From Pseudisothecium myosuroides (lineage: Eukaryota > Streptophyta > Bryopsida > Hypnales > Lembophyllaceae): a stretch of DNA of 64,000 nucleotides. Positions 2,565-64,000 of the stretch are shown one piece after another. Numbering within the stretch: the stretch's first letter is position 1; every line of letters begins with the position of its first letter. The notes below the pieces were generated by a model that worked only from the letters and a program-made list of their open reading frames with translations, searched no databases and was not told where the DNA came from. The position numbers and the translations under genes are program-made. Location: contig OX637296.1 in NCBI GenBank assembly GCA_951799445.1, positions 17,918,001-17,982,000 on the forward strand. Direction: 5' to 3'.

Positions 2565-5500
2565 CTACGGTGGTGCATTTTCATATAACATCCACGTGTG
2601 TAGCACATCCATTGAAATGAGCACAATGCGCAATAACTGTTTGTCCTTTTCTTGCATACAACACAAACGCGACGCAAGCGACTTTTTTGCGGGCAATGCA
2701 TTCGGGGGATATCCTTCTACATGAGAGAAATGGTAGCTTTTTGACCCGCCCAACTTCTTGTCAATGCCTTGCACAATGCCACTATAAAGTTGAAATGTGA
2801 CAATGACTCTTCCCCACGCCCTTTCACTTTAAGAATCTTCTTGTGGATAATCCACATGTTCACAACGGTAGTGTCAATGAGAAAGTAGAATAAACGATGC
2901 CACCACTTATGGGATCGCACTTGACAAGAATAAGATCCCCGTAGTTGATCCGGACATCCACACCATGCATATAAGTAGTATACTCCAAATGTATTGGTGA
3001 TGTTTTAATTTCATGAATGCGTTTACCCACCCGTCGTGGGACTTCAACCACTTCACATGGAAATGCCAAAGGCAATGCACTAGTGGATAAAAGAAGGACT
3101 GGTTTTCAAGTCAATCCACTGAACTGCACACATCCGCCGAGAATCATGCATAGCCCATTACAAACTTCCTTGTGCGCATTTCTTGAATGCTTTATTGTCT
3201 TTCACAAAATCCGGAAGTCCAATGCGGTTGCTTCGAAGAGTGCCCGTTGCATATGTCCCGACCCGTTCTAAATCACGAAATAATTGCACGCTCGTGAAGA
3301 AATTATCCATTACTACAATGTGCCCTCTACCCTCCAATCCCACTAGCAATGCCTCCACCTCCCTTTGCCCCATCTTTGGCTCTCCTTTCTTTGACTTAGG
3401 GGCCCCTATGGTTTCTATAGATGCTCCACAATACACATTGAAGTTGCTAACAAAATGTGTCACAGAATCTGCAAGGCACCAAATTTTGAGTCCCCATTTC
3501 TCGGGCTTATTGGGCATGTATTGTCTCACAGGACAATACACACCTTTATATCGAACCATCATTTCATCAATGGTGACCTTTTCCCCATTATTCCATAAGG
3601 CCTTGCAACGATTACGCATCTCAGTCAATAACCACCTCATTTTATTGACTTTGTCATATGTTGGAGATGTCCGGTCCATGCAAATAGAAGATGGGTTGGT
3701 GATGTGAATGCACTTCGATAGAATCAAAAATCGATTGCGTGAGAGAAGTTGGGATATTATAGGACCAAAAAGTAACGGTTCCGACCTCTGCCAATACATG
3801 CGTATATTGGGAAGTTTCTTCAAGCCCATGTATAAAGATATTGCCAAGAAAACCTTCCATTCACCTACGTCAATTGATTTCCACCCAATGCCACCACGTG
3901 TATATGTCTCATAATCAGTTTTACAGGTCGCATTTAGAATCCCCCGCTTCAACCTCCTCAATTTCTCGGTTGCATACCTATTGGTCTCCGAGCATATGCG
4001 TCTCAATGTTTGAATTGTCCAAAAAAGACCAAATAGTTGAAGAAGAGAGGGGATGCGATCCCATTGTTGAGTCAGGCCAAGTGATGGGCCACTGAATTTT
4101 TTGACATGGGGATGGAAGTTCATGTACCTTTGATTCCACGTCGAGGCCGCATAATCTTCTTTTATTTGATTAGAGGAATTTGCAGCTGCTGGATCTGCTT
4201 CAGTACTCTTGCCTCGACCCCTACCATGGCCTTGCCTACCACGACCCCTGCCACGGCCCCTGCCGCCGCCGCTGGTTGTCGTCGCTGGATGCTGGTCGCC
4301 TGTCGTTGCCTCTGGTAGACGTTGGTCGCCGTCGAAGGCCGCCGCTTCTCCCCTCGCGGGCTCTTCTTCAGCCCGGCGTCGACCTCTTCCTTGCCTCCCT
4401 CTGCCGCCTTGCCTCCCTCTCCCGCCTGCCCCCCTTTCTCCCACCTCCGAGGCCTCCGCCTCTCTCATTTCCGCGGCCGCTGGTCCTTCGCTCCGTTTGT
4501 CGTTGTGTCGCTCACCATCAGCGTCAGTCGCCTCTTCCCTTGCCGCGGCTCTTGTTCGTGGACGCTTGCTATTCTGCGCTTGGGTTTGTGGTCCATCGCT
4601 TCGCCGTCGTTGTTGCCGCCCGTTGGAGAGCACTTCAGTTCCTTCGTTGTCGGTCGTGACAACCCCTTCCCTCCCGCTTGATTGATATTCATGTTGTTTT
4701 TGTGCTTCGTAGTCGTCCTCTTCTTCTACGTCGTGTTGTTCTTTGCCTAAACCCTCGTTCTTGTATTCTTTGTCTTGTGCTGTGATGTTCCTGCTGTCTT
4801 TGAAGTCGCTGCTGAGGTAGAAGTTGTCATCGGAGTCTAAGTCGGTGCTGCAGTTTTCACTTGAGTCATTGCCATAGTTTTCTGTAGAGTTGTTGCTGTA
4901 GCTGTCTGTGTCGGAAGAGAAGTCCGTAGCACCTTCACTTTGAGAGGAGTCACTGAGAACGTCATTGCTTTCATCAAGAAAGAGTATTTGCACTTTTGAT
5001 CTAGGCATAGCAACTGTTGTTTTATTGTTCATAATAATGAAATACATTTCCACTTCCGTAACAACCTCGGGGAGTGCACTTAGTTCTACTTCAACAAACC
5101 ATGTGCAAACAAGTGGTTTCTAATAAACTATAATTTCAACCTAAAATTTTGAGCATTGTTTAATAATGACTATAGGTTTCTATTGCCAAAATTTGCAATT
5201 CAAATAAAAAATGAAATGATTTCTAGAAGAAGTTGAAAATGAACTAAAATGGTATGAATTTCAACTCAAATATTTATAGAGAACACATTTAGATGACTAT
5301 TGCATTAATATTCAACTCAAAATGAGCTTTCAATAGAGATTTATTTTCAAGAATTTTTTGTTCATTTTTTAGATAATTTTTTCTTATATAATATAGGGGT
5401 GTGAAAGTTATTTTTCAGTTCTACAGTGTATCTTTTTACTTCAAAAATTTGTAACTAATTATGATGAAGAAATAAAATATCAATAATTCAAAACATAAAC

Positions 5501-6539
5501 TTTCAAAGTAGGAAAATGTATTCATATTTTTTTTATTTGATTTTATTTAAAATTCAAAAAGTAAATAGGGGGTCCAAAGTTTTGTTCGCACGTGGTTTCT
5601 TATGGACACTCTAAGTGACCCCCCCGAGGTAACAACGTCAAAGTACGAGTAAGTAGCTAGGCCTAAGCTATAGTCACAGTGCTCCTCATCGCCCCCATCT
5701 GAATGGCACCTGTTGTGGTCGGCCAGGCAAGAATCAGGCACTTTGACTGGCATCGGCAGATCCCAAGCTGGTGTCTCGTTCTCCTTGTTCATCGTCTCTT
5801 CGTCTTGAAGCTGCGCGCTTGGGAGGGTTGCGTTCAAGGGACATCGTGGCGGCATTGGCGTCTTCATGCTCGAGGTACCTGGCTCGGCGTTTGCCAACTG
5901 CACCCAGTTCCAAGGCGCCTGCTGTAAGTAGTAAGGTAAAGGTTAATCGAAATCCTAACTTTGCATAACTTGAAATTTTTAATTTGCAAATTTGAGTGAA
6001 GGAAAACAAACCTGGACTGCAGGTGCTATTGGTGCTGCAACGGCTAGGGCTTCTCTCAAGTTGCTGAGCTGCATCCTCGAGGTTGTTGGTTGATGCTGGC
6101 CGCTGATGCAGTCTTCTGCTGTGGTTGATGTTGCTTGAATTGATGTTCCCTTCTTGGTCGTTGGTGCAGACATTTGAAGTGTTGGTGACTTCACAGGTGG
6201 AGTCAGGGAAGACAAATGTGCGCAGGTGGTGGTATACTTCAGCACTGAATCCTTCTCCATCTCCTTCCAGTCGTCGTGATGGACCCCAACCCAGAATTGA
6301 GCTTGCGTTGCGGTAGTAGAGCTGACGGTAGTTTCTGTTGGCAGGCTGTTTTGGTAGTATCCTACTCTTGCTAAGCTTGGGTCTGGCAGCAAGAATTTTT
6401 TGTCTAAACATGCCACTAGAAGCTGCACCTGAGCCTCTGAGGCCCCATGCTCTTTGAGAGCCCACTGTTTAATGACATCTGCAGTGGCAGCAAGAGAAGG
6501 AGGAATGGGGAGAAGCGGGGAGGAGGCAAAAGAGTCCAT
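2565..6539 (-). pseudogene. piggyBac-like transposase gene, decayed and split by a MITE
   Basis: The gene encodes a DDE transposase of the piggyBac (DDE_Tnp_1_7/PGBD) family. Exon 1 is 6539-6012 (ATG at 6539, 176 codons). A 90-bp intron follows (6011-5922, GT..AG). Exon 2 runs from 5921 to 5629, is interrupted by the 563-bp MITE, and resumes at 5057. The N-terminal half has an acidic Ser/Asp/Asn region and an Arg-Gly-rich tract (GRGRGRGRQGHGRGRGK). The catalytic Asp codons are at 3566-3568 (IDEMMVRYKG), 3305-3307 (MDNFFTS) and 2956-2958 (HGVDV). Damage includes TAA at 3158-3160, a frameshift near 3100 and another just after HGVDV. The KWWHRLFYFL region (about 2900) remains in a third frame, and a weak Cys-containing tail lies near 2600. 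Family is confident; the exon 1 join rests on splice sites and frame continuity. Confidence 0.8.
5066..5628. mobile_element. 563-bp MITE, CTCGGGG termini, TSD GTAACAAC (copy 1)
   Basis: The ends are CTCGGGGAGTGCACTTAG on the left and, reverse-complemented, CTCGGGGGGGTCACTTAG on the right. They are flanked by exact 8-bp duplications GTAACAAC at 5058-5065 and 5629-5636. An ACGTGCG-like motif lies 36 bp inside each end (ATGTGCA at 5101; complement of 5587-5593). It has no ORF. It interrupts the piggyBac-like gene: deleting the element and one duplication gives the codon series GAC GTT GTT ACG GAA GTG in frame. It has the same length as the copy at 52073, and its termini match those of the 9.65-kb element. 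Confidence 0.9.
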
Positions 6540-11522: not shown

Positions 11523-12878
11523 CTAAGGAACAGCATCCCATCGAAGCTCCAACATATCATCTGCAGAATCATGAGGACTCCACTCTGGAATCTGAGAGAT
11601 TATTTGCCACTGACTTGTAGACAAGTCGAAAAGCAATGTTCGCTTATGCAGATAATCATCATCATTATCATCATCATCATCTTCATACGCATTTACTACC
11701 AAAAAGTCTTGGCATCCAAAAATGTGCGTCTCCAACTCGACGTCTCTTTGATAGTCAGATATTCCATCAATTCCATAGCACTGGTGCTGCTTCAGTCGAA
11801 TCCAATGCGGCTGGCAACTTTGGGCTTGGTATTCGTTCAGGAGGTATTCATCATTATCATTCGTATGCAGGACAAACAGGCGGTCTTTCACGAGAACGCT
11901 GCTGACCCCTAAACTACGCGGATAGCTATCATCATCAAGCTCAAGCAAGGTACTGCTTGCACAATCATAAGCACAAGGACCAACTTCCACTTTCTCCACA
12001 TTTTGATTACCAGGGCCATAACTCTTCCACGAGTACTGACAGCCAAAAATGAGATCTGAAAAGATGTTCGGCTTACTCCACTTTCCAGTGACGGAGCTGA
12101 AAATCCTTGCTACCGCATCGCCTCCGCGTTCTTTCTTGGGGCCCACGACTAGCACCTTGTAGCATTTGGAGTCCTGGTCCATCACCAATTGGACCATACG
12201 AGGCTGAATTCGGCTCAGGGAAGACAACGACGGAAGTTCTCTCCACTGTCTTGTCAACGGATTGAACACTACTATGTTCAATGGAAACTTCTCTTTGACT
12301 GGGGCAATGGAAACAAGGCACACTAACCCTCCATCGCCAGCAAGCATTTTCTCACAAGTCTCTGGGGCAAAAGTCTCATGCACAAGTTCGTGCCATCTAT
12401 TTTCCTTGCTATCATATAGCTTTACATCCACAGGCCCATTATCACTGTCATAATCACTCCAGGCTTCACTTACCAGAGCAAACATGTTGGGATTTCGTTC
12501 TGCACATAACTTGGTGAATCCAGGAGTCACTCCTGTCACATACCTGTCTTAGGTCTTCGAAAGAACTCGAAGGCGAATAATATCAGGCAATGGCAGGCAA
12601 GAAAAAATGAGTTGCAAGAGCTCCACTGGCAGCATGCTCCATACAGCAGGGCACAACGGAGAACACGCACACACATGTGCAACTCCAGTCAGGTAATTCT
12701 GAATGCCGATGGCGGCCAATTCGTTCTTGAACGTGTCAATGTCATGCTTAAGAAGCGCACTTTGTTCCATAAGGTGTCGAGATCTTTTCTCCAAAGAACG
12801 ACGGGTCTCACGAACTTGGGCCTTCTTTCCTTCTCGAAGTCTGGCAAATGCAGAGGCATCCTTCTCTGTGAAGTCCAT
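11523..12878 (-). pseudogene. F-box protein pseudogene (in-frame stop at a Trp codon)
   Basis: The reading frame runs from ATG at 12878 (MDFTEKDASAF) to TAG at 11523-11525. It is 1,356 nt, the same length as the intact twin at 39010-40365. It has an N-terminal coiled coil (Glu/Arg/Lys-rich), an F-box (AVWSMLPVELLQLIFSCLPLPDIIRLR, shown here as the region around 12600) and a C-terminal beta-rich F-box-associated region. In the F-box the twin reads SKTWDR; here the Trp codon is TAA (12549-12551), leaving 109 residues upstream. The C-terminal part carries an Asp-rich insertion from a GAT-type microsatellite (about 11650-11690), absent from the twin. An intact version would act in an SCF ubiquitin ligase. 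Confidence 0.85.
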
Positions 12879-24464: not shown

Positions 24465-25666
24465 ATGGATTCATTTGTTTCGGAGACAACTTCGAATGCT
24501 TCTGATGATTTTACTGCTAGAGACGAATTCTTGGGAAAAAATCGTTCATTGAAGCCCTCTGATAGAAATGAGGTTGACTCTGAGTTTGGAGATGAGGGCG
24601 AGGCCAAGGTCTGCTTGATCATGCCGTGTGGTGCAAACTCCCGGAAGAGTTGTTGGTAAACATTTTTGCAAGACTGCCTGTGAAGAACATCCTCCAAATT
24701 CGTTCTTTGAGCAAGTCTTGGAGATTTACCATAACTTCCCCTCAATTCCAGCAAGCATTTTCTGAGTCTTCCTTAGTGAGGATTTCTCTGCTGGTCGGAA
24801 GTGATCAATGTGACACAATCTTTTTCAGCCAAGAGAACAAGGAGGAAGGCTTTCGACTTGGTTTTAATCCTCGCAATTCAGAGAAGCCGTTTGACGATTC
24901 CTTTGATATAGCAGGTACTGCAAGTGGCCTCATTTGTGTCATTGAGCATGAAGATCAAGAACCTAATTTTTCATATAGCTTTCTCAGAGTTTTTGTTATG
25001 AATCTGGTGATTGGTGTTCGTCGTGAACTACCCTCTCCTCATATCACGACCTTGAGACCCAAATTGGTCCAGATGAAGGCAAATGTCCACGGCGGTTATA
25101 CCATCACGTTCATGTACTCGAAAGACCGTGAAGAGCTTCAAGTGACCTCATGGCAAGTCTATGATTCTGTGAAGAACCTATGGAGCAAAGATGAGGGAAG
25201 AGCCATTGCAGACTTCAAAGGTGTGGAAGCTTTCAACATGTGTTTTTCTTTAGGGGAAGGTGAACAGTATGATGTTCCAGCAACTTTCCATAAGGAGACC
25301 AAGGCGATCAATGTATTTAATCTTCATGAAGGAAATGAAAGGTGCGATCCTTGGGATTATCTTTCAAATCCCAATGGACATGTGCATAATGTGTCTGGAG
25401 AGTTGTACAAGCTTTGTACGCGGGAAGGGCGGCATGGTGTTTGGAGGCTATTGTGCTCAAGCCAATGGGAGATGGTATGTGAATGCCCTGATTTGGAGGG
25501 GGTGTGGACTTGCCTTCGCGTGATGAATGACCTGGTTGTTTTGATTATTGAGTTACCGGTGCCTTTCGAGTCTACCAAATGGTATGACAAAGTTCATGAA
25601 GTTGATGGTGATTATTGTCGTCATAGTGGTATTGTGAAGGTTTTTCACATGCCCACAAAGGTATGA
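24465..25666 (+). CDS. F-box protein gene with probable frameshift
   Basis: This is an F-box protein, a substrate adaptor of SCF ubiquitin ligases. ATG at 24465 opens a 65-codon frame (MDSFVSETTSNAS) running to 24659. The F-box (CKLPEELLVNIFARLPVKNI, then RSLSKSW) lies in another frame that is open from 24596 and continues to TGA at 25664-25666. That frame has no ATG before or within the F-box, so a one-base deletion (or two-base insertion) between 24596 and 24659 is the simplest explanation. The C-terminal ~300 residues resemble F-box-associated beta-propeller regions. The layout matches the F-box genes at 11.5 and 39 kb (AVW..LP.ELL), but it is a distant paralogue. It is either a young pseudogene or a sequence error. 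Confidence 0.7.
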
Positions 25667-39009: not shown

Positions 39010-40365
39010 CTAGGGAATAGCATCCCATCGAAGCTCGAATATGCCACCTGCAGGATTAGTAGAAAAGCACTCTGGAATCTCAGAGATTATTTGCCACTGA
39101 CTTGTAGACAAGTCAAAAAGCAATGTTCGCTTATGCGGATAATCATGTGCGCTTACTTCAGACGCAGTTACTACCAAAAAGTCTTGGCATCCAAAAAGTT
39201 GCGTCTCCAACTCGACGTCTCCTTGAATTCCAGATACTTCATCCAGTAAACAGCACGTGTGCTGCTTCAGTCGAACCCAATGCGGCTGGCAACTTTGGGC
39301 TTGGTATTCCGTCAGGAAGTATCCAAGATTATAATTAAAATGCAGGACAAACAGGCGGTCTTTCACGAGAACGCTGTTGCCCCGAAATCTGCGTGGATAG
39401 CTACCATCATCAAGCTCAAGCAATGTACTGCTTGCACAATCATAAGCACAAGGACCAACTTTCTCTTTCGCCACATATCCATTTTCAGGGCCATAACTCC
39501 TCCAAGAGTACTGACAGCCAAAAATGAGATCTGAAAAGATGTTCGGCTTACTCCACTTTCCAGTCACGGAGCTGAAAATCCTTGCTACCGCATCGCCTCC
39601 GCTTTGTTTCTTGGGGCCCACGACTAGCACCTTGTAGCATTTGGAATCCCGGTCCATCACCAATTGGACCATACGAGGCTGAATTCGACTCAGGGAAGAC
39701 GATGACGGAAGTCCTCTCCACTGTCTTGTCAACGGATTGACCACTACTATGTTCAATGGAAACATGTCTTTCTCTAGGGCGGTGGAAACAAGGCACACTA
39801 ACCCTCCATCGCCAACAAGCATTTTCGCACAACTTTCGAGTACACAAGCCTCATGCACAAAATGATGCCATCTATTTTTCTTGCTATCATATAACTTTAC
39901 AACCATCTCGACATTCTGAGGCCCATTATCACCTGGGGCATATTCACTCCCTTCATTTATCAGAGCAAACATGTTGGGATTTCGTTCAGCATATAACTTG
40001 GTGAATCCAGGAGTCACTCCTGTCACATGCCTGTCCCAGGTCTTCGAAAGAAGTCGAAGGCGCATAATATCAGGCAATGGCAAGCAAGCAAAAACGCGAT
40101 GCAAGAGCTCCGCTGGCAGCATGCTCCACACAGCAGGGCACAACGGAGAACACGCACACACATGTGCTACTCCTATCAGGTAATCTTGAACGCCGATGGC
40201 GGCCAATTCGTTCTTGAACGTGTCAATGTCATGCTTAAGAAGCGCACTTTGCTCCATAAGGTGTCGAGATCTTTTCTCCAACAAACGACGGGTCTCACGA
40301 ACTTGGGCCATCTTTTCTTCGCGAACTCTGGAAAATGCAGAGGCATCCTTCTCTGTGAACTCCAT
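39010..40365 (-). CDS. F-box protein with N-terminal coiled coil
   Basis: This encodes a 451-residue F-box protein, presumably the substrate-recognition subunit of an SCF E3 ubiquitin ligase. ATG at 40365 (MEFTEKDASAFSRV) is preferred over the in-frame ATG at 40428. The twin locus differs by three single-base indels in the stretch between them, which is the pattern of untranslated sequence. Order: charged coiled coil (residues about 5-55), Cys-rich linker (VCACSPLCPAV), F-box (WSMLPAELLHRVFACLPLPD, then RLLSKTW), and a ~330-residue beta-rich region with NPLTRQWR and VTGKWSK motifs like F-box-associated/kelch repeats. The stop is TAG at 39010-39012. A 5' UTR intron is likely, since donor- and acceptor-like sites lie upstream. 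The substrate is unknown. Confidence 0.88.
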   Translation of the reverse strand: MEFTEKDASAFSRVREEKMAQVRETRRLLEKRSRHLMEQSALLKHDIDTFKNELAAIGVQDYLIGVAHVCACSPLCPAVWSMLPAELLHRVFACLPLPDIMRLRLLSKTWDRHVTGVTPGFTKLYAERNPNMFALINEGSEYAPGDNGPQNVEMVVKLYDSKKNRWHHFVHEACVLESCAKMLVGDGGLVCLVSTALEKDMFPLNIVVVNPLTRQWRGLPSSSSLSRIQPRMVQLVMDRDSKCYKVLVVGPKKQSGGDAVARIFSSVTGKWSKPNIFSDLIFGCQYSWRSYGPENGYVAKEKVGPCAYDCASSTLLELDDGSYPRRFRGNSVLVKDRLFVLHFNYNLGYFLTEYQAQSCQPHWVRLKQHTCCLLDEVSGIQGDVELETQLFGCQDFLVVTASEVSAHDYPHKRTLLFDLSTSQWQIISEIPECFSTNPAGGIFELRWDAIP

Positions 40366-41325
40366 TGTTAAGCTAGGATCCAGCAAGTGATTCTTTGTGT
40401 GTAGGCCTCTGTCCATGGAGCCAAACATGAAACCAAAAATAAGGGAGACCAGTTAGAGATGGATCGTTGCAGCACCAATACTTTCGACCATAGACAGAAG
40501 AAAAATGTCAATTGAAAGAAAATGCGTACTACAGGAAACCACCAAATTGAGAACTCGAAAGTCTTACTTCTCTTCAGTCCAAACCTAAAGCACCCAAACT
40601 GCCATGGCCGACTACACCCAAACACCGCTGCAACAGAAGGCCGCAATTCTAAACTCCTACAACGAATATCACAAACAACCGAAAGTACATGACATGTTGG
40701 GGTAGTATAAAGAGAGTCAATCTTTATTACCATTCAAGGAACATTGGTTAATTTATATATACAAGGTGACATTCCTAAGGAATATCAAGCGACTGGATTT
40801 GTCATGCCTCGGTGAATATCAAACAACTCAAGCTATCAAGATATCCTTATATTCTACTTTTACACGACAGAGTCAGTATCTAGTCTGGTAGTTACACCAC
40901 CATACATGCACCATAGGATTCATCAAAAAGAAAACTAGAAGTTCCGTCTGCAATTATCTGACGTATGCAATTTTCCAAGATAACAAGCATAATGCAATGT
41001 ACATGAACTGCAATTCTTTGAACTCACATGAGCAAGCGATCAAAGAAACCAACTGAAGCCCCCTTTAGTCAGGACATGATAATTGCAACATAACAAGCTG
41101 TCCCCGCTATTTCCGTCAACTCCATCAGATTGATACGAATCAAGCTTGTGTGCTCCATATCCAAGCAATATCTAGCTGTTCAAGCAAATTAAAACGGAGC
41201 TTCAAGGAGACGCGCGTGGGATCGGAAATTGGTGGCACCAGAAACAACAGAAATTGGAAAGTTTCAGCAGGAAAGGAAAGAACGGAACTCTTGAACTGAA
41301 GCTGCGTCCTACTGATCTGCAAGCG

Positions 41326-46493: not shown

Positions 46494-46856
46494 ATGGTGT
46501 ACTAGTTTGAGTTGATAGAACAAAGAAAGCATGATCTTTAATCTCGGGGGGTGCACTATGTAGGATGTTCATTGGTAACGTGCGTTCAAGCTCCTATTCT
46601 ATAGGGGCTATGTAGGTAAATTTTTTGAATTTCTATAGGGCTACATTTACCTAAATTTCTAAATTGGGGCTATATTAAGTACCCTATATTTCATTTCAAA
46701 TTTTTTTTTGGACTATTTATGTGTACCCTATGTTCATTATAAATATTGAACATTGGCAAAATTTTGTATTGGCTCATATTCAAATCATTAATTGAAAACT
46801 TGGCATACAGCAAAATAGTGTACAAAATGAATGAACTTCATACACTACTTGGAAAC

Positions 46857-47098
46857 ATACAAAACGAGTGAACTTCTGAAGCGGTTTTAGCAAACATACA
46901 ACAGTTTGAAACCCAGTAACCCATAGTACACTACATTGTTTTATATACTAAACGAGTGAAATCCTGAAGGTATTAGTGAATATACAACAATTTGAAACCC
47001 GAAGTACGGTGTACTCAACTACATACTAAACGAGTGAACTTCAAAAGCTATTACCAAACATACAACACTTTCAAAACCAGAGTATACTACATTCAATT
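46857..47098. repeat. Three subterminal tandem repeats (~80 bp each)
   Basis: Units start near 46857, 46944 and 47022, each with AAACGAGTGAA, then ACATACAACA.TTT and AC.ACATTC. They lie 0.3-0.55 kb inside the left end of the transposon. A shorter direct repeat (CTATAGGGGCTATGTAGGTA and CTATAGGGCTACATTTACCT) lies at about 46599-46665. Confidence 0.65.
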
Positions 47099-47385
47099 AG
47101 AGGTAGTTTAGGAAGTGCAAGTAGTTTCTAAATAAACTACTTTCATCAAAAATACTATTGAAGCCACAGTTACTGCATACATTCAATGCAAATTGAAAAG
47201 CACCGTGAAACACAAATTGAAGGAGTTTGAAAACCGTATTGAAACTAGTCAGACAGAGAAAGTTGAAAATCAGGCACAAAGGGATGAGAGTCCGGAATTC
47301 AAACCAAAAAAGAACCTGGAATTGCTAGGAAAAATGCATTGTGCACAAACAAAAGAATGTGTTACCAAACACAGCACAAAAGCAT

Positions 47386-48348
47386 TCACAAAGTTCCAAA
47401 AGTTCCCCGTTGCAGTGTGACAAAGTTCATTTCCAAGGTCCACAACTGAGCATGCAAAGAATCAAAAACTGGTTGCAACAAAACTTGTAGCCTGTTGAAA
47501 CTCCTAAACTTTACAGAAACTGCATCCCACGTGAATGTGCAAGTTGGGGATGCAATGCAAAACGAGGCACCTGCAAGTGACAAAACACAAGCCAAATGAA
47601 TGACATTGAAGACAACCAAAATGAAATTCAAACAAGAGTTACTGAGCGGCTTCAAGTTTAGGGTCTGTGCTGTTACCTGAGGCGCGTGAACATTGGTGCC
47701 ACGACTAGAATCAAATGCGCCACACCTGCAAATTCAACCATGAACACAAGTGAATCAATACAACTAAAGAGAAAACTGGAATTCACATACAAATGATTGA
47801 GTGGGCTGGGATTCAAGTGCAATGTTACCTCATCGCACTGATGGGGTCACCTAGATGTTTGCACACTGGAAATGCCCGTCTCCCTTTATGACTTGAATTT
47901 CGTGACACCACCCTCCAAAAATGAGCGACCGCAGTTGCTGGAGCTCGCTTCCCGCCAGGTCTGCCAATGCCGTTGTTCGCAGCTTGATCGGGATGGGCGC
48001 CTCAAACATCCAGGACTTCGTCAAGAAATCCAAGTTGCAATCAAAACCCTGCAAAACACTAGAGCACTTGCGGTCCCCTGAAAACGAGAGCGCATCACTG
48101 GACCACTCCTTCTGCTGCTCAAGACATGCCATCCTGAGCGCCGCATACTGCACACTCAACTCCACGCTGGCTCAAGTGACCTTTGATACATTAGCGAGCG
48201 TGGGAATCAGGTGCAGAAGAGCAATTCGGTTCCCATCTCTGCGATCCAAACGAGCCCATGGACAAGCGGGAAGACAGCAGCCCTCCAGCACAAAGTCAAG
48301 AAGCGCATGATTCACAATATCCTCACAATCGGAAACTGGCGACTTCAT
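47386..48348 (-). pseudogene. Decayed unknown coding sequence inside the transposon
   Basis: ATG at 48348 opens MKSPVSDCEDIVNHALLDFV and continues in one frame to TAG at 47851-47853, broken only by TGA at 48172-48174. The predicted peptide is helical (VELSVQYAALRMACLEQQKE; IPIKLRTTALADLAGSELQQ). Downstream, a GCAG acceptor near 47574 precedes an open stretch (FTWDAVSVKFRSFNRLQVLL) ending at TGA 47386-47388, and a 49-bp exon-like piece lies between AG and GT at about 47679-47727. This suggests a multi-exon gene or captured host fragment. I do not recognise the product and the exon joins are not proven. Confidence 0.35.
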
Positions 48349-48948
48349 CGTGCAGCACGAAAGTGACAAACAAGCAACCCACAATCACAAGAATTTGCAA
48401 GAAACAACAGGCGTGCTTGTGCACAAAGGAGAAGACACGAGGAATTGCAAGGAGCGCCCAAATTTGTTAGCAAAACTCCAGCACCGTCGAACAGCGCGCA
48501 TCCCCAAATGAAGAAGGCTGCAATCCCGATGAGAAACTCCAATTGCTGAACCTGCAATGAGGAACTGGAGGTTCTGGAATCTCATGACATTTCCAAACTC
48601 AATGACGATGGAAACCCAGCAGCGTCTATGAGAAATTGACATTTCTAGAAGTGAAGTCACAGATTTCAAAGGCAATGCAAGATCTGCAATCAGAAAAAAG
48701 AAATGCTGAGGGTCTTGTCTATTGTGCCTCCAAACTCCCAATGACTCATTCAGTCATTCAAGCTTTTCAAAAATTTGGGCTCCAAATCTTCTCCAGATTT
48801 CTTTTTCGGGTCAGTCATGTCAAGCAGACCTGAAATTACTGCGGGTCACACTTCATTAGAAATTTTAAAAAACAGTAGTTATAGGAACCCTCAAATCAAA
48901 ATGACATTTAGAAGACGCTGAAGAATACTGACGTGGAAATTCACTTAC

Positions 48949-50119
48949 TTTGTCGTATTCAGGGTACACGTGGAGTTCCAAGAATTTGGCAACCTGGAAA
49001 CACAACTTGGTCCGTGAGAAAGGAAAGAAGGGGCAGCTGAAAAAGGTAATCCTGCCCGAGATCCAAAAAAAAGGGAAGCTGAAGACCAGACCCTGACTCA
49101 GGGGAAAAAAAATCGCAGAGACTGAATGACAGTCCACAGTGTAGGAAAAACAAAGGAAAGCTTGGTATGATAAACCAGATTGTAGAAACACAATGACAAG
49201 GTCGACATGAGAAACAAGACTGAAAAAAAAAATTGGAAACTCAAACAAAAGAATCTAGACTACAGAACAAAAAAATGGGAAGCAGGGCATGAGAATCCAG
49301 AGTCGACGAAAAAAGGGTGGCAAGCTGAAAACCTAAATCCAGACCGAAGAAAAGAAAATGGGAAGTTCGAAATGATAACCTAGCGTGAGGGAAAAAAAAT
49401 GGAAAGCTCATCTGCAGTGAATTCAGACAAAGTCCAAAAAAATTGGAAGCTAAAACAAAGAATCCCCGGTGGCTACCAAAAAAAGGGAAGCTCCAAAATA
49501 TAATCCCCAGTGACGAAAAAATAAATGGAAAGCTTCCAAAACATAATCCCCAGTGACAAACAAAAAATTGGGAAGCGAAGACAGAGAATCCAGGTGGAGG
49601 AAAAAAAAATTAGTTACCAAATAACTACAAATTGGTATCACCTAGGTAAGCATATTCATATCAGGAAATCCAAGAAAGTAATCGATAAAAGAAAACGTCC
49701 GAAGTCAAAACAATGGAGAGAATAGGAGTCGCAAACATTACCTTCCCCGCTGGTACTTGGAAATAGGGAATCTGCAAAATAAAATGCACACAATGAGAAC
49801 CAAAGAACGCTTGCACGGAGGACACATGGATATAAAAATTCTGGTAGGAAGCAGAAACGGCTACTAAGTGATCTGGAAAACGATCATGCTAGCCGAATTT
49901 GAAGATCAAGCGCTTATCTCAAAAGAGGATTGGGATATCAGAGGGGGGAAATGGAGTACAATCAGTAAAAATAAAGATTTCTGAAGCTCAACTACATAGT
50001 TCTCAAGAACCACAAACCTGGGTTACGAGAAGAAAAGGGAGTTCCTGCTCCAGCAACTTGAAGGACCTCACAGAATGACAACGTATTTCACAGAGGATCT
50101 TAAAAAACGGCCACTTCAT
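48949..50119 (-). CDS. Putative spliced small gene inside the transposon (unknown)
   Basis: Three exon-like pieces share one phase. Exon a is 50119-50018 (ATG; MKWPFFKILCEIRCHSVRSF through LLVTQ, donor GTTTGT). Exon b is 49771-49742 (IPYFQVPAGK, acceptor TTTTGCAG, donor GTAATG). Exon c is 48993-48949 (VAKFLELHVYPEYDK, acceptor TTTCCAG, donor GTAAGT). After the next acceptor (48830) the frame ends within four codons (VCLT, stop), giving about 63 residues. Alternatively the pieces are a transduplicated fragment of a host gene. The second intron holds the 51-bp repeat array. The product is not recognised. Confidence 0.35.
49000..49616. repeat. Degenerate ~51-bp tandem array (A-tract plus GGGAAGC)
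   Basis: About a dozen degenerate units alternate an A-tract, TGGGAAGCT and AATCC..AGTGAC. The clearest are between 49440 and 49610 (TGGAAAGCTTCCAAAACATA region). The array lies in the predicted intron between exons b and c of the preceding feature. Confidence 0.65.
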
Positions 50120-50445
50120 TATTGGATTCACGGTTTCACTAAAACAATAGCAGTCTCAAGAAACTGTGCTTTGCCGGGTGCTGCTCCAAAACTTCCGTTA
50201 GAAGCACATAAGTGGATCACAGTCTCCAGAAACCAGAATTGCAGACTTGTGATTCACCTTAGTCTATATAGGAAAGAATGAAGTTACTGGCGAATTTTGA
50301 GTTCTCTTGTTTCCACATACATCACCCAGGTAGTTATAAAAGGAGGCCTACAACAGAGCTATCAATCTTAAATGAAGAAGGACTGAATCACCGTCATCTG
50401 AAAACGAGAACTTCCTAAACCCATGGTACTTGCAGCCAAATGTTG

Positions 50446-53400
50446 CTATTCAACTGAATTGCTAGAAACATATTCATTCAAATTACCTGCATCAGCGTAG
50501 TCCAAGGTATAAACTCCAGTCTCAGAGTTATAGGACAAAGTGACATTCGTGATTATCGCCTCAAGGCTAATCCATTTAGAGTCCGTTAAATCGTACTTGA
50601 ATTTATACTGACCCGTGGTTTTTGTATAATAGTGGAGTATCACTTCAACATTTGCAACCATGACCCCTTTCTTACCTGCACTTACCTCACACTTTGTAAG
50701 ATCCACGGGCTGCTTCAAGGCTCCCCACGAATTCCCCCCGGCACGCCGACGCATCTTCTGAATTCTGCCAATCCACCAAGTACCCTCATCCCTCCCAGAA
50801 GTTGTGGACATTGGCCTGCCAGACCTGGAAGCTAGAGACTTTCCCCTTTTCTTTGCTGCCTTCACCGTCGAGGCCCTAGAAACTGTGGAGCGCTGTACAA
50901 AATAGACTCCAACATCCGAGCCAATCCCCACAAAGCACGTATTGGAACATTCAGCAGCATTGAGGTAATCCTCACTATTGTTAAAGTACATTGATTTCTT
51001 CACGCGAGTCAGCCTATCCTTGGATAAGAATGGGTTACCGTTTAGTTGTCCTCCCAACGTTGACTTGAAGATCCTATTTCCATCGAACTCCACGAACGCT
51101 TCCACTTTCACTGGGACAGTTTGTGCCTGAACATGCTCCTCGTGGTGGCTTAACATCTCGGAGATGACATCGCGTGTTTTGGACTCCACGACTGTGATGG
51201 CAGGTATTCCATCATCAAGTAAATCTTCTTCCACCTCCTCCCCTGCAGCAGGTTCCACCTCACCCAATTCCGCACAGCGCTGGAGCTCCTGCTCCTTGGC
51301 ATTCAAATCTTCTCGTAAGACTTTCATATCGCCATCCTCGCCACGAACTGGTTTAGAACCTGCAGCAAAGGCAAAAGATTGTTTGTCCGCCATTTCTGCA
51401 ACCCACGGTTTGTCAAACCAAACCTTGTTCTTTGCACTCGCAGCAGGATTTGGAGCCATATTTAGGCTGTTAATCATTCTCTGCGCCTCCTTCAAACCTT
51501 CTTTCAAGGCTGTGACAACATCTTCATTAGACGAAACTGTGCTGTAGTCTCCAAGGTCAGCCTCCACCTCGCCGTCTTGTAGTTTGTGGAGTTTTGCCCA
51601 AATGTTGTTCATCTTATTATGAGCCCTTGCAAATTTCAAACCATTCCCTCCATACTCAATCTGTGACAACTGATTCACTGTATTTGCAGCACCCAACAAT
51701 TCCTGGAAGTCATATGCCCTCTCCATGCCTACCATCCCTCCTATCTTGGAAAAAAACCCTTCACAGGAGTCACTGCCAGTTAGGTGCAACGGCACAGGCA
51801 AGTGAGGATACATATCCCGAAAATGGGAAATAAGTAAAACAACAAAATGGCAGGAAAGTTGAACATCCAAAAAACACTGCTGACTAACAAAGTGCAGCTT
51901 TGGATTCACAACTTCAGTATTACCCAGCACACCCGGATTCCCAAACTTCATCCAAAGCTTCCAAATTCAAAAGAAAAATGACACCTTACCTGCTTTCACA
52001 ATCCTGGCACGGAGGTCGTGACGGGGGGATAGGAAAATGTCGATGTAATCTGCGCAGATCTCAAGGTACATCCTCGAGGGGGCACCTAGTATTTTACTAC
52101 AAACCACGTGCGAACAAGTGGTTTCTAATGAACTATAATTTCAACTTAAAATTTTGAGGGTTGCTTAATAATGACTATAGGTTTCTATTGCCAAAATTTC
52201 AAACTAAAATAATAGTTGAAATGATTTGTACAAGAGGTTGAAAATGGCCTAAAACGGCATGTTTTTCAACTCAAATATTTATAGAGATCACATTTAGATG
52301 ACCATTGCATCAATACTCAACTCAAAATGAACTTTCAATAGAGAGCTATTTTTAGGAATTTTTTGTTCATTTTTTAGACAATTTTTTAGGATATAATATA
52401 GGGGTGTGAAAGTTATTTTTCAGTTGTACAGTGTATCTAATTACTTCAAAAATTTGTAACTAATTATCATTAACAAATAAAAATAAAAATAATTCAAAAC
52501 ATAAACTTTTGAAGTAGGAAAATCTAGTCATATTTTTTTAATTTCATTTTATTTAAATTTTAGGATATAATATAGGGGGTCCAAAGTTTTGTTCGCACAT
52601 GTTTTCTAATGGACACTCTAAGTGACCCCCCCGAGGGTACATCTCCGTCCCCAGAGTGCGCTCACGGTGCAAATCAGTGGACAAGCGAAGGGAGCGCAAG
52701 CAAGTGCAAACTTTTTGAGAATATAATCTTTGAGCACTAGCCCAATTCTGCTTGTCTTTTCTATCGTAGTCTTCTTGCAGTAGTCCGTGCTCATCAACAG
52801 TAAATCGATTGAAAACTTGACAGATCTGTTGGTGAAGTGCCATATCCGCACCTAATCTCAAAGTTTTAACATTGCTGTCAAGCGGGTTTAGCAGTTTCTT
52901 ACCGTTGTGAATGTAGTCCTAGTCATGCAAGCCTATAGGTTCTCCTTTGGCATTCACTGCAGAGCTAAAAATCCAGCCTTCCCAATCCACGGTTAACCGT
53001 TGGCCGCCTAAGCCCCTGTAATCTATAAGCATCAACTGTCGCCTCCGGGAGTCCCCATCACTGGCATGTCCAATTAATGGACCCACTGCAGCATAGCAAT
53101 GCTTGGTCCACAAGTCATCGATTCTTTTCCATTGATCTCTTACCCACCCTGAATCAAAATAGCCACAAGTACAACAAGCAACAAGGACTAATCGAGGTAG
53201 TTTAGGGTGCAAAGGGTTCACAACAATGACTCTTGCAAACCCACCTACTTTGTCTTGCCTAAACGAGTCTACCATTTTGTTGTAACCTACCTCCCCTACT
53301 CCAACACCAGGCTTGTAATCCGTTATGCATCTGTGATTCTCTTTTGGCCCACAGAAACCTATAAGAGTATTCTCTTTCAGCCCGGGCCTCCCACGAAACC

Positions 53401-55517
53401 CGCCCCCTAACCTTCGTTTCATCCTCCGCAAGAATGACAGGGCCAGGGCCACAGATCCCATGCGCACCTTTTGCATCAATGTAGATGCTTGCAATTGACT
53501 GGAATATTTCAGCGTGCTCCCCGGAAATGAACGTGACTCCCTTTCTAGATTCCCTGCAAATGGTGTCATAACTAGGACCAGCAAAATTGAGAGCAAACAA
53601 ATCACACAAACGTCGACCGCCATAGATCCTCATCGCTTGGGAAAAACATTTCGTATTTTCATTGTAGCGATTCCCTGAATCCTTACGGTTGAGATTAGCA
53701 GCAACGTCCTTCATGAAGTCCCACAATGCATGTTTCCCTCCAAAGGCTCCGATCCTGTGCGCACTGATAATGTTGTTACAGAATTTTACCAGATTATTAT
53801 CGGAAGACGCATTCATGGCACTTTCACGCAAGGTTGGCCTTCTAGCCTTCAACTGTGCAATTCGTGTTCTAGCATGCCAGTAGTGCAATTTCTCTAAACG
53901 CAGCTTCTTTGACAGATTTCTAGTATGTTTACTCACTTCGCATGCAGACAAGTAGCCTAAGCGTATGCCTCCAGCGGTGCTTCGGTGTCCCCTCTTAATG
54001 AATGCCTGCTCTTCTCTTTTAATTCTCATTCTAAAATCATTTTCAAGTGGTATTGAGGCACACGCAGGGCAAGTGAAATTTTGAAAAGGCTCCCCAAGCG
54101 CAGACAGGCGACTACATTTTGTATGCCGAAACAGTCCAGTGACCTGGACTGAAACACCTTCAACAGCAAGTGACGCACTAAGATGTGGTTCCGGATACCA
54201 GTCAACACCACGGTGGCGATCATTCAGCAAAGCATTCACAGCATATGACAACCCACCATACTCCACAACAGGACCACAGAATCCATAACACATCAAGGAC
54301 GCAATGAAGGTTTTATCCACGGATTGAGACAAACCTGGCAAACTGGCTGACGAAGTTGGCACGAACCAGGAGTGGAGGTCACCTTGATTAGAGTGGGAAC
54401 TAGTTGTCGTGGACCTGCTTGGGCGCCCTGGCCGAGCAGTCCTTGCTGCTTCTTTCGCTGGTTGCTTCGAATCCTCCACCGCCTTCTGGTGTTTCAAACC
54501 CGACAAATGATTTCGCAAATTCACTTCTAGTGTCTTGCGTGGTGGGCAGAGGACCATCATGTCACTGCAATACGGGCAGCGCACTTTGAACCAGTAGCAC
54601 CTGGTATTCTGCGCCTCCAAATTTCCAAGCACTTTGAACTTATTATGCCCTTCCGGAAGAGTAGCGTTCACCCGGTCGATGATGCTAACCCCCTCGGAAA
54701 TGAGTTCTCTGTGACCCTCGGGAGTCAAGGTAATCGCTCCTCCGTATTTGGCCTGCGACTGCGGGTGGTCATCAAAGTTGATATTCTTTGCAGCACAATA
54801 ATTTCTAACATGCAACGTGCTCACAATGTGCGACCTCCGGAAGTTGTTGAACAAATTGTCGATTTGAGCTTTAGTATGGTCCCTGCTTCCACCTCCGCAG
54901 TCCTTTTTGCATTCGGCGCACCACAATTTCACCACTCCACAGCCATTCAAATCGAATGTTTTCAACCACCACAGGTGATCATCCATGGAAATCCGTTTCA
55001 ATTCGGCCCTCAACTTCTTCGCCCGTTCAAAATAACGATCCATGATATCATTGGGCAGAAGCTCAGATCTCATGGGATTGTTGTCCACCTTGGCCGACTC
55101 CGCAGTGCCGCTCACCCTCGATGATCCAACCGGCAGAGCTACTGCATCGTCACCGTCACCGTCAACCTGCACAACTTGAACTCCTTCTTCCGCGGCAGGG
55201 CCGACCTCCCCGTCATCAACAGAGAACGATCCATCACCAATTCGACGGCGTTTGTTTGGATCAATTTCCACTTCTCCCAAACAAATGACGTGAACTGATG
55301 TAGAAAAACCGTTGAGGCGCTCCAATTTCTTCCTCACACGGCGTTTGTCTTCTTCATCCCAAAAATCAAACGGCCATTCTAGAATGTCATTGCTTTCCAA
55401 TGTAAATCGCAGAGCCTCCAGCGTAGAAGCACCTCCCACGTCGACCTTACCAAAATACTCTAAGTCTACACCATCCGCTTTCAAAGTCCACAACGTGACC
55501 CTGTCGGGGGTAGCCAT
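50446..55517 (-). pseudogene. Zinc-finger transposase of the P/THAP9-like type, decayed
   Basis: ATG at 55517 (MATPDRVTLWTL) opens a 752-codon frame. Zinc-binding patterns lie at residues about 200-241 (WCAECKKDC ... HVRNYC), 314-343 (CPYC ... H..GLKH) and 483-486 (CPAC). The motif order fits the P-element/THAP9 catalytic core: AEDETKV with VSW (D699), then ASDGDSRRRQLM, then D..H..KKLLNPL, then DSCEGFFSKIGG. Damage: a 1-base indel near 53370, TAG at 52919-52921 where a sense codon fits (HD-stop-DYIHNGKK), a 563-bp MITE at 52073-52635, and TGA at 51967-51969 (SFFF-stop-IWKLW). The final 501-codon part ends at 50446. Restored length would be roughly 1,400-1,500 residues. Transposase identity is strong; the superfamily is inferred. 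Confidence 0.75.
52073..52635. mobile_element. 563-bp MITE, TSD GGTACATC (copy 2), inside the transposase gene
   Basis: The ends are CTCGAGGGGGCACCTAG and, complemented, CTCGGGGGGGTCACTTAG, flanked by GGTACATC at 52065-52072 and 52636-52643. The ACGTGCG motif is at 34 bp (left, 52106) and ATGTGCG at 36 bp (right). Its length equals copy 1. On the minus strand, removing it plus one duplication gives GGG ACG GAG ATG TAC CTT GAG ATC, continuing the transposase frame (GTEMYLEICADYIDIFL). Confidence 0.92.
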
Positions 55518-55518
55518 A

Positions 55519-55532
55519 CCCTAAACCCTAAA
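55519..55532. promoter_or_regulatory. Telo-box-like motif at the transposase start
   Basis: CCCTAAACCCTAAA lies directly upstream of the transposase ATG. AAACCCTA telo-boxes are common in plant promoters and leaders. A regulatory role here is inferred from sequence alone. Confidence 0.35.
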
Positions 55533-56202
55533 TGTGAAGAAACTGGCCACCTGAAATCTACAGACCTTCTTTGTTGCCCTCAAGCGCAAAAACCTCAGTC
55601 GCTGCTTTCCAAAACGTGAATCCGTAGCCAGACCAGCCGAAGCACTTACAAAAATCTGTGTCGCAAACCACTCTAAGCATTCAAAAGACACGCAACAAAA
55701 ATGAGAACTCCAACGGCAACAGAGCCTGCAACCCTAAACACTTTGAAAACGTCTTTCCCTCCACGTGCAGGTGCGATCATCCATGTTGGTGCTGTCATCC
55801 ACCAAATCCACGGCAATGTGTATGTTTCTCTGTTCATCCTGCAGGCGCATTGGTATAGTACTGTACAATAATTGATCACATACAGCTGAGATACAGGAGA
55901 CATTGGATCCACCTTTGGATACTCTTCAGTCTTCACTAACGTATAGTACTTATAATACTTCTAGTAGAAGTTTTGATTTTTTTTTTAAAATTTTGCCAAG
56001 CTATTGTAGAAATAAATAGTTGATAAAATTCACTATTATCCCCTAACCTTCGTTACTTATACAGACCCCAATCCTATTACAATGATGCTAGTTTATTTCC
56101 AAGGCATGTCGAAAATTTAGGACCAAGGCAATTATAATAACCCTTCGTTAGATTGCACGTGTACCACAAAAAAATTGGGAGTGCACCCCCCGAGTCTTTA
56201 AT

Positions 56203-63601: not shown

Positions 63602-64000
63602 GTGAGTTCCTTGTCGAAGTCTCTAGATTTGGAGTTGAAATTTAAGGCTTAAATGCCTCTCCATGAGTAGTGCAGATTTGTCTTGCAATTGAGGGCATAG
63701 TTGTCACATTAGACAGACCGTCCGCCCAAACTGTTTGATTTATCTGCATGTTTGGGATGTTCAGTGCCTTTAATTCGTCCGATGTAATTACTTTAAGATA
63801 GTCACATTAACCGTTCGGTCCGTTTAAACCGTCCGATGTGTCCGCCCGTCTAAGATGTCTAGTGATCCTAACTCGCCCAACGTTACAACAATGATTGAGG
63901 GTGCCTTTCAATTCTGCTTATTTTGTTTGTGATTATCATTCTCTAGTGGAATTTCAAACGGTCTTTTTCTTTTGTGATCACAAGGACCATTGTTGGTTGA
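63602..64000. other. Intron of the G3P dehydrogenase gene running off the window
   Basis: It starts with donor GTGAGT at 63602. No further dehydrogenase exon was recognised before 64000. Short repeats of the CCGTCCGATGT/CCGTCCGCC type lie at about 63717-63850. Confidence 0.6.

Follow-up and report, generated by a model that had tools for sequence, protein, structure and literature searches.

Among animal transposons the P element is the classic one, and it serves as a main genetic tool in flies; an older classification may list the P superfamily for plants or algae. The Drosophila melanogaster P element, for which we draw on passages of PMC7776569 and PMC8230255, is 2.9 kb long, carries terminal and subterminal inverted repeats, makes an 8-bp target duplication and has non-autonomous copies; its transposase (DmTNP, PDB 6pe2/6p5a) combines an RNase H core bearing a DDE triad with a D(2)H motif and a helical insertion domain. 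THAP9 and zebrafish Pdre2 are animal and THAP-bearing, with an 8-bp duplication, terminal repeats of 13 bp and subterminal repeats of 12 bp described in passages of PMC10983969, which mention no second gene. Rust-fungus P elements (P-1_MLP and others), also with 8-bp duplications, place the superfamily outside animals (a passage of PMC3164196). Elsewhere, the superfamily has been called mostly restricted to Drosophila (a passage of PMC5791352), one plant genome has been stated to be without it (a passage of PMC11939994), and Table 1 of a 2022 land-plant transposon review gives six terminal-repeat superfamilies (Tc1-Mariner, hAT, Sola, MuDR, PIF-Harbinger and CACTA), with P absent from that table (PMC9033089). 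In the passages that our searches of open-licence full-text literature covered, we found no description of P elements in bryophytes or ferns.

Here we compare these systems with a locus in a 64,000-bp window, the whole stretch of DNA analysed, from the moss Pseudisothecium myosuroides. The element at this locus very probably belongs to the P superfamily of cut-and-paste DNA transposons and has a P-type catalytic core, and our verdict is that it represents a two-gene variant of that superfamily in a land plant. It shares with the Drosophila element the 8-bp duplication, both classes of inverted repeat and non-autonomous copies, and its modelled transposase shares the DDE-bearing RNase H core, the D(2)H motif and an insertion domain of nearly equal length. 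In contrast, elements of the plant group are 8-9.4 kb long, and their transposase of about 1,500 aa is encoded without introns, has a longer spacing between the first two Asp residues and contains no THAP domain that we could find; a long Cys/His-rich N-terminal part, a BAH-like C-terminus and a second gene set the plant element further apart from it. The likeness to THAP9 and Pdre2 lies in the 8-bp duplication, the terminal and subterminal repeats and the same predicted catalytic core. With the fungal elements, compared by published description, the plant element shares the 8-bp duplication and a place in the superfamily outside animals.

Table 1. Features of the element and of related miniature elements, in window coordinates
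Feature	Position	Strand	Remarks
P-superfamily element, defective copy	46543..56194	.	9,652 bp including nested miniature element
Left terminal inverted repeat	46543..46557	+	15 bp, CTCGGGGGGTGCACT
Right terminal inverted repeat	56180..56194	-	15 bp, CTCGGGGGGTGCACT
Target duplication, left copy	46535..46542	+	8 bp, TCTTTAAT
Target duplication, right copy	56195..56202	+	8 bp, TCTTTAAT
Left subterminal inverted repeat	46578..46589	+	Consensus ACGTGCG[T/A]TCAA; candidate transposase site, putative role
Right subterminal inverted repeat	56149..56160	-	Diverged in window copy; putative role
Transposase pseudogene segment 1	53376..55517	-	N-terminal region, Cys/His clusters, HTH region, first catalytic Asp (EDET); tblastn of P0003 and P0017
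Transposase pseudogene segment 2	52637..53377	-	SDGDS motif, D(2)H motif, start of insertion domain; frameshift at start; tblastn
Stop TAG inside segment 2	52919-52921	-	
Transposase pseudogene segment 3	50446..52071	-	End of insertion domain, catalytic Glu (GSDSCEGFFS), C-terminal part; tblastn
Stop TGA inside segment 3	51967-51969	-	
Two Cys/His-rich clusters, zinc-finger-like	54478..54930	-	By eye from translation and alignment
C-terminal domain	50473..50943	-	BAH-like predicted fold
ORF2, second gene	47833..48348	-	Broken by stops 48172-48174 and 47851-47853
Nested miniature element	52073..52635	+	563 bp; ends CTCGAGGGGGCACC / CTCGGGGGGGTCACT
Its target duplication, left copy	52065..52072	+	GGTACATC
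Its target duplication, right copy	52636..52643	+	GGTACATC
Second miniature element, same group	5066..5628	+	563 bp; duplication GTAACAAC at 5058-5065 and 5629-5636

The ends of the element can be read directly from the DNA. A first-pass annotation had described perfect 15-bp inverted termini within an exact 8-bp target duplication, and both descriptions hold (Table 1). The 15-bp end occurs five times in the window at up to two mismatches, against a mean of 0.01 in shuffled sequence, and the subterminal repeat, as built from 11 aligned element ends, has one mismatch between its left-end and right-end consensuses. When the window was scanned for an exact 8-bp duplication flanking inverted repeats that agree at 12 or more of 15 positions and lie 150 bp to 12 kb apart, three pairs were obtained: 46543-56194 (15/15), the 563-bp element at 5066-5628 with ends similar to these, and 63696-63893, whose ends are unrelated. 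In the host genome, the 15-mer was found 556 times at up to one mismatch, compared with eight times for a reversed-pattern control. Among the first 100 matches listed, all exact, we examined all 14 converging pairs less than 10 kb apart, and 12 carry a duplication, identical at 8/8 positions in seven and at 7/8 in five, whereas none of 182 mismatched cross-pairs reached 6/8. This was the genome search that the first-pass annotation had proposed as a check, and it bears that reading out. The two pairs that lack a duplication are locus L015 and locus L020, the latter an inverted duplication; a matching duplication is likewise missing at three (L028, L032 and L033) of nine stop-free copies examined. 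Over 14 exact sites, no clear target preference emerged apart from A/T richness. The group comprises several subfamilies in the host and shows signs of recent movement.

The copy in the window is dead: its transposase gene has suffered a frameshift and two stops, and a 563-bp miniature element is nested in it. Thus, "complete" is a fair description of its ends, but not of the transposase gene, which is broken in four places, and the quoted 9.65 kb stands as a span of which 571 bp are the nested element and its duplication. Locus L027, 98.2-98.7% identical to the window element over three aligned blocks, is a natural empty site of the nested element, with one copy of GGTACATC. In sister copies and relatives the transposase is a single intronless ORF with about 1,500 codons; the apparent splicing in the window is therefore damage, and the "extra spliced ORFs" reported earlier are pieces of one gene. 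A spliced transposase gene is rejected on the one continuous frame of intact relatives and sister copies. The earlier mention of a zinc-finger transposase is right as to a transposase gene inside the element, but the fingers are seen by eye only, and Pfam recognises no zinc finger in the window or own-genome proteins. By eye, we also suspected a ubiquitin-like N-terminus. Nine other ORFs in the element (eight in the left 3.9 kb and one at 55673-55960) gave nothing above cut-off, and an Rfam scan of the element gave no match.

Modelling and alignment indicate that the transposase core is that of the Drosophila P element, with an HTH region followed by an RNase H fold bearing a DDE triad. As in the solved P element transposase, a helical insertion domain is predicted to split the RNase H fold after the fifth strand. 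The predicted triad (P0003 numbering) consists of D588 on strand 1, D707 or D709 at strand 4, and E949 on the helix after the insertion. D588, D709 and E949 are kept in all 23 aligned proteins and D707 in 22, while among 34 distant proteins D707 is invariant, D588 and E949 are conserved at 90% or more, and D709 falls below 90%. The spacing between the first and second Asp would thus be 119 or 121 (with D707 or D709 as the second), compared with 73 in DmTNP and 88 in Galileo (a passage of PMC4168063). A D(2)H motif, as defined in a passage of PMC8230255, lies just after strand 5 (D754-x2-H757, 23/23), and D856, our guess at the counterpart of DmTNP D444, is kept in 18 of 23. The predicted fold of the C-terminal domain weakly resembles a BAH chromatin reader; the chance that this is a coincidental match of a small beta barrel, uninformative on chromatin, is only a little short of even.

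The second gene, ORF2, encodes about 185 aa where intact. It lies downstream of the transposase on the same strand at 33 of 39 transposase matches, a genome search scored 150 matches to it, and it accompanies subfamilies whose transposases share only 49-55% identity. Among four copies dN/dS is 0.26-0.36, although selection leaves no trace in two recent pairs (dN 0.012/dS 0 and dN 0.011/dS 0.007) and several distant pairs are saturated. From these sequence comparisons ORF2 appears to be kept by selection, and its product would therefore most likely assist or regulate transposition. Alternatively, it could derive from a host gene of which a piece was picked up a single time, and would then be a passenger outside the element's machinery; its absence near six of the 39 matches and the recent pairs would suit this, as would the lack of a Pfam family and of a meaningful PDB match by sequence (best E for the ORF2 profile 0.4). 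Against this reading stand its position, its company of divergent subfamilies, the dN/dS among four copies and the 150 genome matches, and we consider it unlikely. A loose likeness of ORF2 to F-box proteins, noticed by eye, was dropped when four copies gave no F-box Pfam match at E <=10.

Assignment of the element to the P superfamily draws on its ends, its duplications and the modelled catalytic core, which together support the original reading of a P-like transposon in a plant. At the sequence level, the link appears to run through distant relatives: PF12017 matches seven of 34 distant relatives and PF21787 one, PF21787 also matches two of 33 nearer relatives, and P0053 is the only relative shown above the Pfam cut-off for P-element models. 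The transposases of the window and of its own genome have no P-element Pfam match at E 1, and PDB searches by sequence found no P transposase, the best E being 0.35 for the window piece and 1.1 for the profile of the family; NCBIfam gave nothing of note for three relatives. Pfam scans found no THAP domain in the window, the own-genome copies or 73 of 84 relatives, and the element is therefore not filed in the animal THAP-bearing P element/THAP9 family. P might also be merely the nearest solved relative of KDZ or another superfamily that makes 8-bp duplications and has no solved structure. No Pfam family scores above cut-off on the window protein, the structure lists could not favour KDZ because no KDZ structure was among the rows listed, and one protein from the last homology search, P0082, which the alignments do not include, has a Harbinger-type DDE_Tnp_4 domain (E 1.4e-18). 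Pfam scans of the window, own-genome and some relative proteins returned no KDZ match. We judge this reading very improbable. A divergent hAT transposon, which would share the 8-bp duplication common to hAT and P, an RNase H fold with a helical insertion and abundance in plants, is less credible still, since in the structural comparison that the first-pass annotation had called for the model matches hAT much more weakly, Hermes is not the best match among the structures listed, and no hAT transposase or dimerisation Pfam domain occurs in the window, own-genome copies or relatives scanned.

Since unbroken copies carry a predicted P-type enzyme together with a second gene, the P group would be present in land plants in an unfamiliar form. 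Such a multi-copy group in a land plant, in which some copies are free of stops and recent movement has left signs, would widen the range of the superfamily, and would offer a route to ask whether GTP dependence and the THAP domain are ancestral or animal additions; the part of ORF2 in transposition can be tested directly. A viral or prokaryotic origin was set aside, with no confirmed relative among 49 pattern matches in viral contigs or 172 in GTDB genomes, no relative in phage records, and no match at E 0.001 among predicted viral structures. The order in which liverwort, fern and host copies branch would agree with inheritance from an early land plant. More tentatively, and with the balance against it, the lineage may be as old as land plants, an old, deep P branch with two proteins, a giant transposase whose chromatin-reader-like tail chooses sites and an obligatory ORF2 of undescribed fold.

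As to mechanism, the Cys/His-rich N-terminus of the transposase may bind the terminal and subterminal repeats, and the DDE centre would cut the element out and join it to sites 8 bp apart. ORF2 may help or regulate this process, and the BAH-like C-terminus, at a guess, may anchor the enzyme on chromatin that bears marks. Short copies that retain only the ends would be moved in trans, and the window copy is a dead passenger, a miniature element having jumped into its transposase gene. That nested element is 87.5% identical to the second miniature element of the window.

At window positions 46543 and 56194, the element ends in perfect 15-bp inverted repeats with TCTTTAAT flanking both sides, as the first-pass annotation had described. 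In the 387.9-Mb host genome (222 contigs), the 15-bp end, allowing one mismatch, occurs 276 times in forward and 280 times in reverse orientation, compared with 3 and 5 times for a control pattern; because of these counts, and of shuffles, a chance origin of the ends is excluded. We surveyed all 14 converging pairs closer than 10 kb among the first 100 places listed, all 100 exact. The search proposed for further copies with these ends and 8-bp duplications succeeded: duplications are exact in 7/14 pairs, 7/8 in 5/14 and absent in two, including locus L020, whereas left and right flanks of different copies never agreed at 6/8 or better (0/182). L020 forms a large palindrome of a P-like left end plus flank, with near-perfect 3.1-kb arms (99.8% identical).

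Long and internally deleted copies have about 200 bp per end in common and unlike middles, and the consensus of 11 of them contains a subterminal inverted repeat, ACGTGCG[T/A]TCAA. L013, which has P-like ends but lacks a transposase match, contains a 321-aa ORF (1783-2745, no Pfam match), possibly cargo or a nested element.

Features of the window and classes of the surveyed copies
Feature	Position or size	Strand	Detail
P-superfamily element	46543-56194		9,652 bp
Transposase start	55517	-	read right to left
Frame change	near 53376		
Stops	52919-52921; 51967-51969		
Nested miniature element	52073-52635		563 bp
ORF2	47833-48348	-	
Imperfect internal repeats	46857-47084; 49226-49610		within the element
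Second miniature copy	5066-5628		overlaps upstream end of piggyBac-like frame
piggyBac-like transposase ORF	3158-5119	-	DDE_Tnp_1_7, E 1.7e-54
F-box or kelch-type ORF	11523-12548	-	domain match
F-box or kelch-type ORF	24596-25666	+	domain match
F-box or kelch-type ORF	39010-40452	-	domain match
Long, with transposase (3)	L010 9,383 bp; L014 8,490; L018 9,026		
Long, without transposase (2)	L012 6,698 bp; L013 8,972		
Internally deleted (5)	1.3-2.1 kb		
Miniature (3)	566-581 bp		
L020 (1)			inverted duplication; completes the 14 pairs

The window copy is dead. It had been called complete, which holds for its ends only and fails for its transposase gene, with its frame change, two stops and 563-bp insert bearing its own duplication, GGTACATC. 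The extra spliced ORFs once proposed are not borne out; relatives have one continuous gene, here shifted, stopped and interrupted. The sister copy L027 (98.2-98.7% identity over three blocks) carries the empty site of the nested miniature element, with a single GGTACATC. The second miniature copy, duplication GTAACAAC, is 87.5% identical to the nested one; both terminate on the right in CTCGGGGGGGTCACT, identical to the ends of subfamily L029, with which they have only ~42 bp in common.

Searching the host genome with the related transposase P0003 gave at least 40 matches, a lower bound because scoring covered only 39 of 521 candidates and the matches listed do not include the copy in the window. 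Ten of the 40 listed have no stop within the matched stretch, and the nine fetched have open frames of 1,299-1,518 codons. Exact 8-bp duplications and repeats of 14/15 or 15/15 bound L029, L030, L031 and L034; the duplication is 7/8 in L027 and L035 and was not found in L028, L032 or L033. Ends vary between subfamilies. Low transposase dS in L028/L029 (0.011) and L030/L031 (0.007) points to recent movement.

The second gene, ORF2, is a common reading frame 3' of the transposase on the same strand (window, L010, L014 and L018 compared). Of 39 transposase matches, 33 have it within 7 kb downstream on the same strand and one has it upstream; in no case does it follow on the opposite strand, and none is present near six. 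ORF2 of L029 gave 150 scored matches (248 candidates), the window's included. Among the stop-free copies it reaches the conserved end in six of nine (L027-L031 and L034), where it spans 184-211 codons from stop to stop; L033 and L035 carry a shorter version, and that of L032 contains a stop. Between subfamilies its identity is 20-40%, versus 49-75% for the transposase; ORF2 in the recent pairs is 97% identical. The rates support probable coding selection: dN/dS is 0.26-0.36 in all six pairs of four copies, pairs that are not independent and whose larger distances near saturation, and codon position 3 is least conserved. Against this reading, several distant pairs are saturated, and the two recent pairs show no sign of selection. 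ORF2 has no convincing relative in Pfam or PDB.

A fully supported clade of 20 emerged in a tree of 28 proteins, midpoint-rooted and with some long outer branches; within it a fern plus two sequences branch first, then liverworts, then the host group. This order is compatible with, without proving, descent within land plants. Table 1 of a land-plant review gives six terminal-repeat superfamilies, P not among them (PMC9033089), and our searches of the open-licence literature turned up no account of the group from bryophytes or ferns. An amoeba and a chromalveolate alga are known to have distant homologues of PF12017 (PMC3985635), and P elements of rust fungi have 8-bp duplications like those of the moss element (PMC3164196). 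We read the element as a variant with a P superfamily core, without THAP and with a second gene.

Around the observed ends, duplications, deletion copies, empty site and ORF2 placing, a mechanism can be proposed. The transposase, to which model and alignment assign a predicted P fold and the conserved acidic residues, would drive cut-and-paste through its DDE centre and recognise the ends through its N-terminus; short copies would be mobilised in trans, ORF2 could have an accessory role, and insertion might be targeted to chromatin.

Among the relatives, the distant P0049 has a PTM/DIR17-type Tudor domain at its C-terminus, fused to a P-like transposase. The homology match P0082, excluded from alignments, has an N-terminal Harbinger-type DDE_Tnp_4 domain (E 1.4e-18) and is perhaps a chimaera or nested element. 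In the window, the two minus-strand F-box or kelch-type ORFs resemble each other on visual inspection and perhaps arose by duplication.
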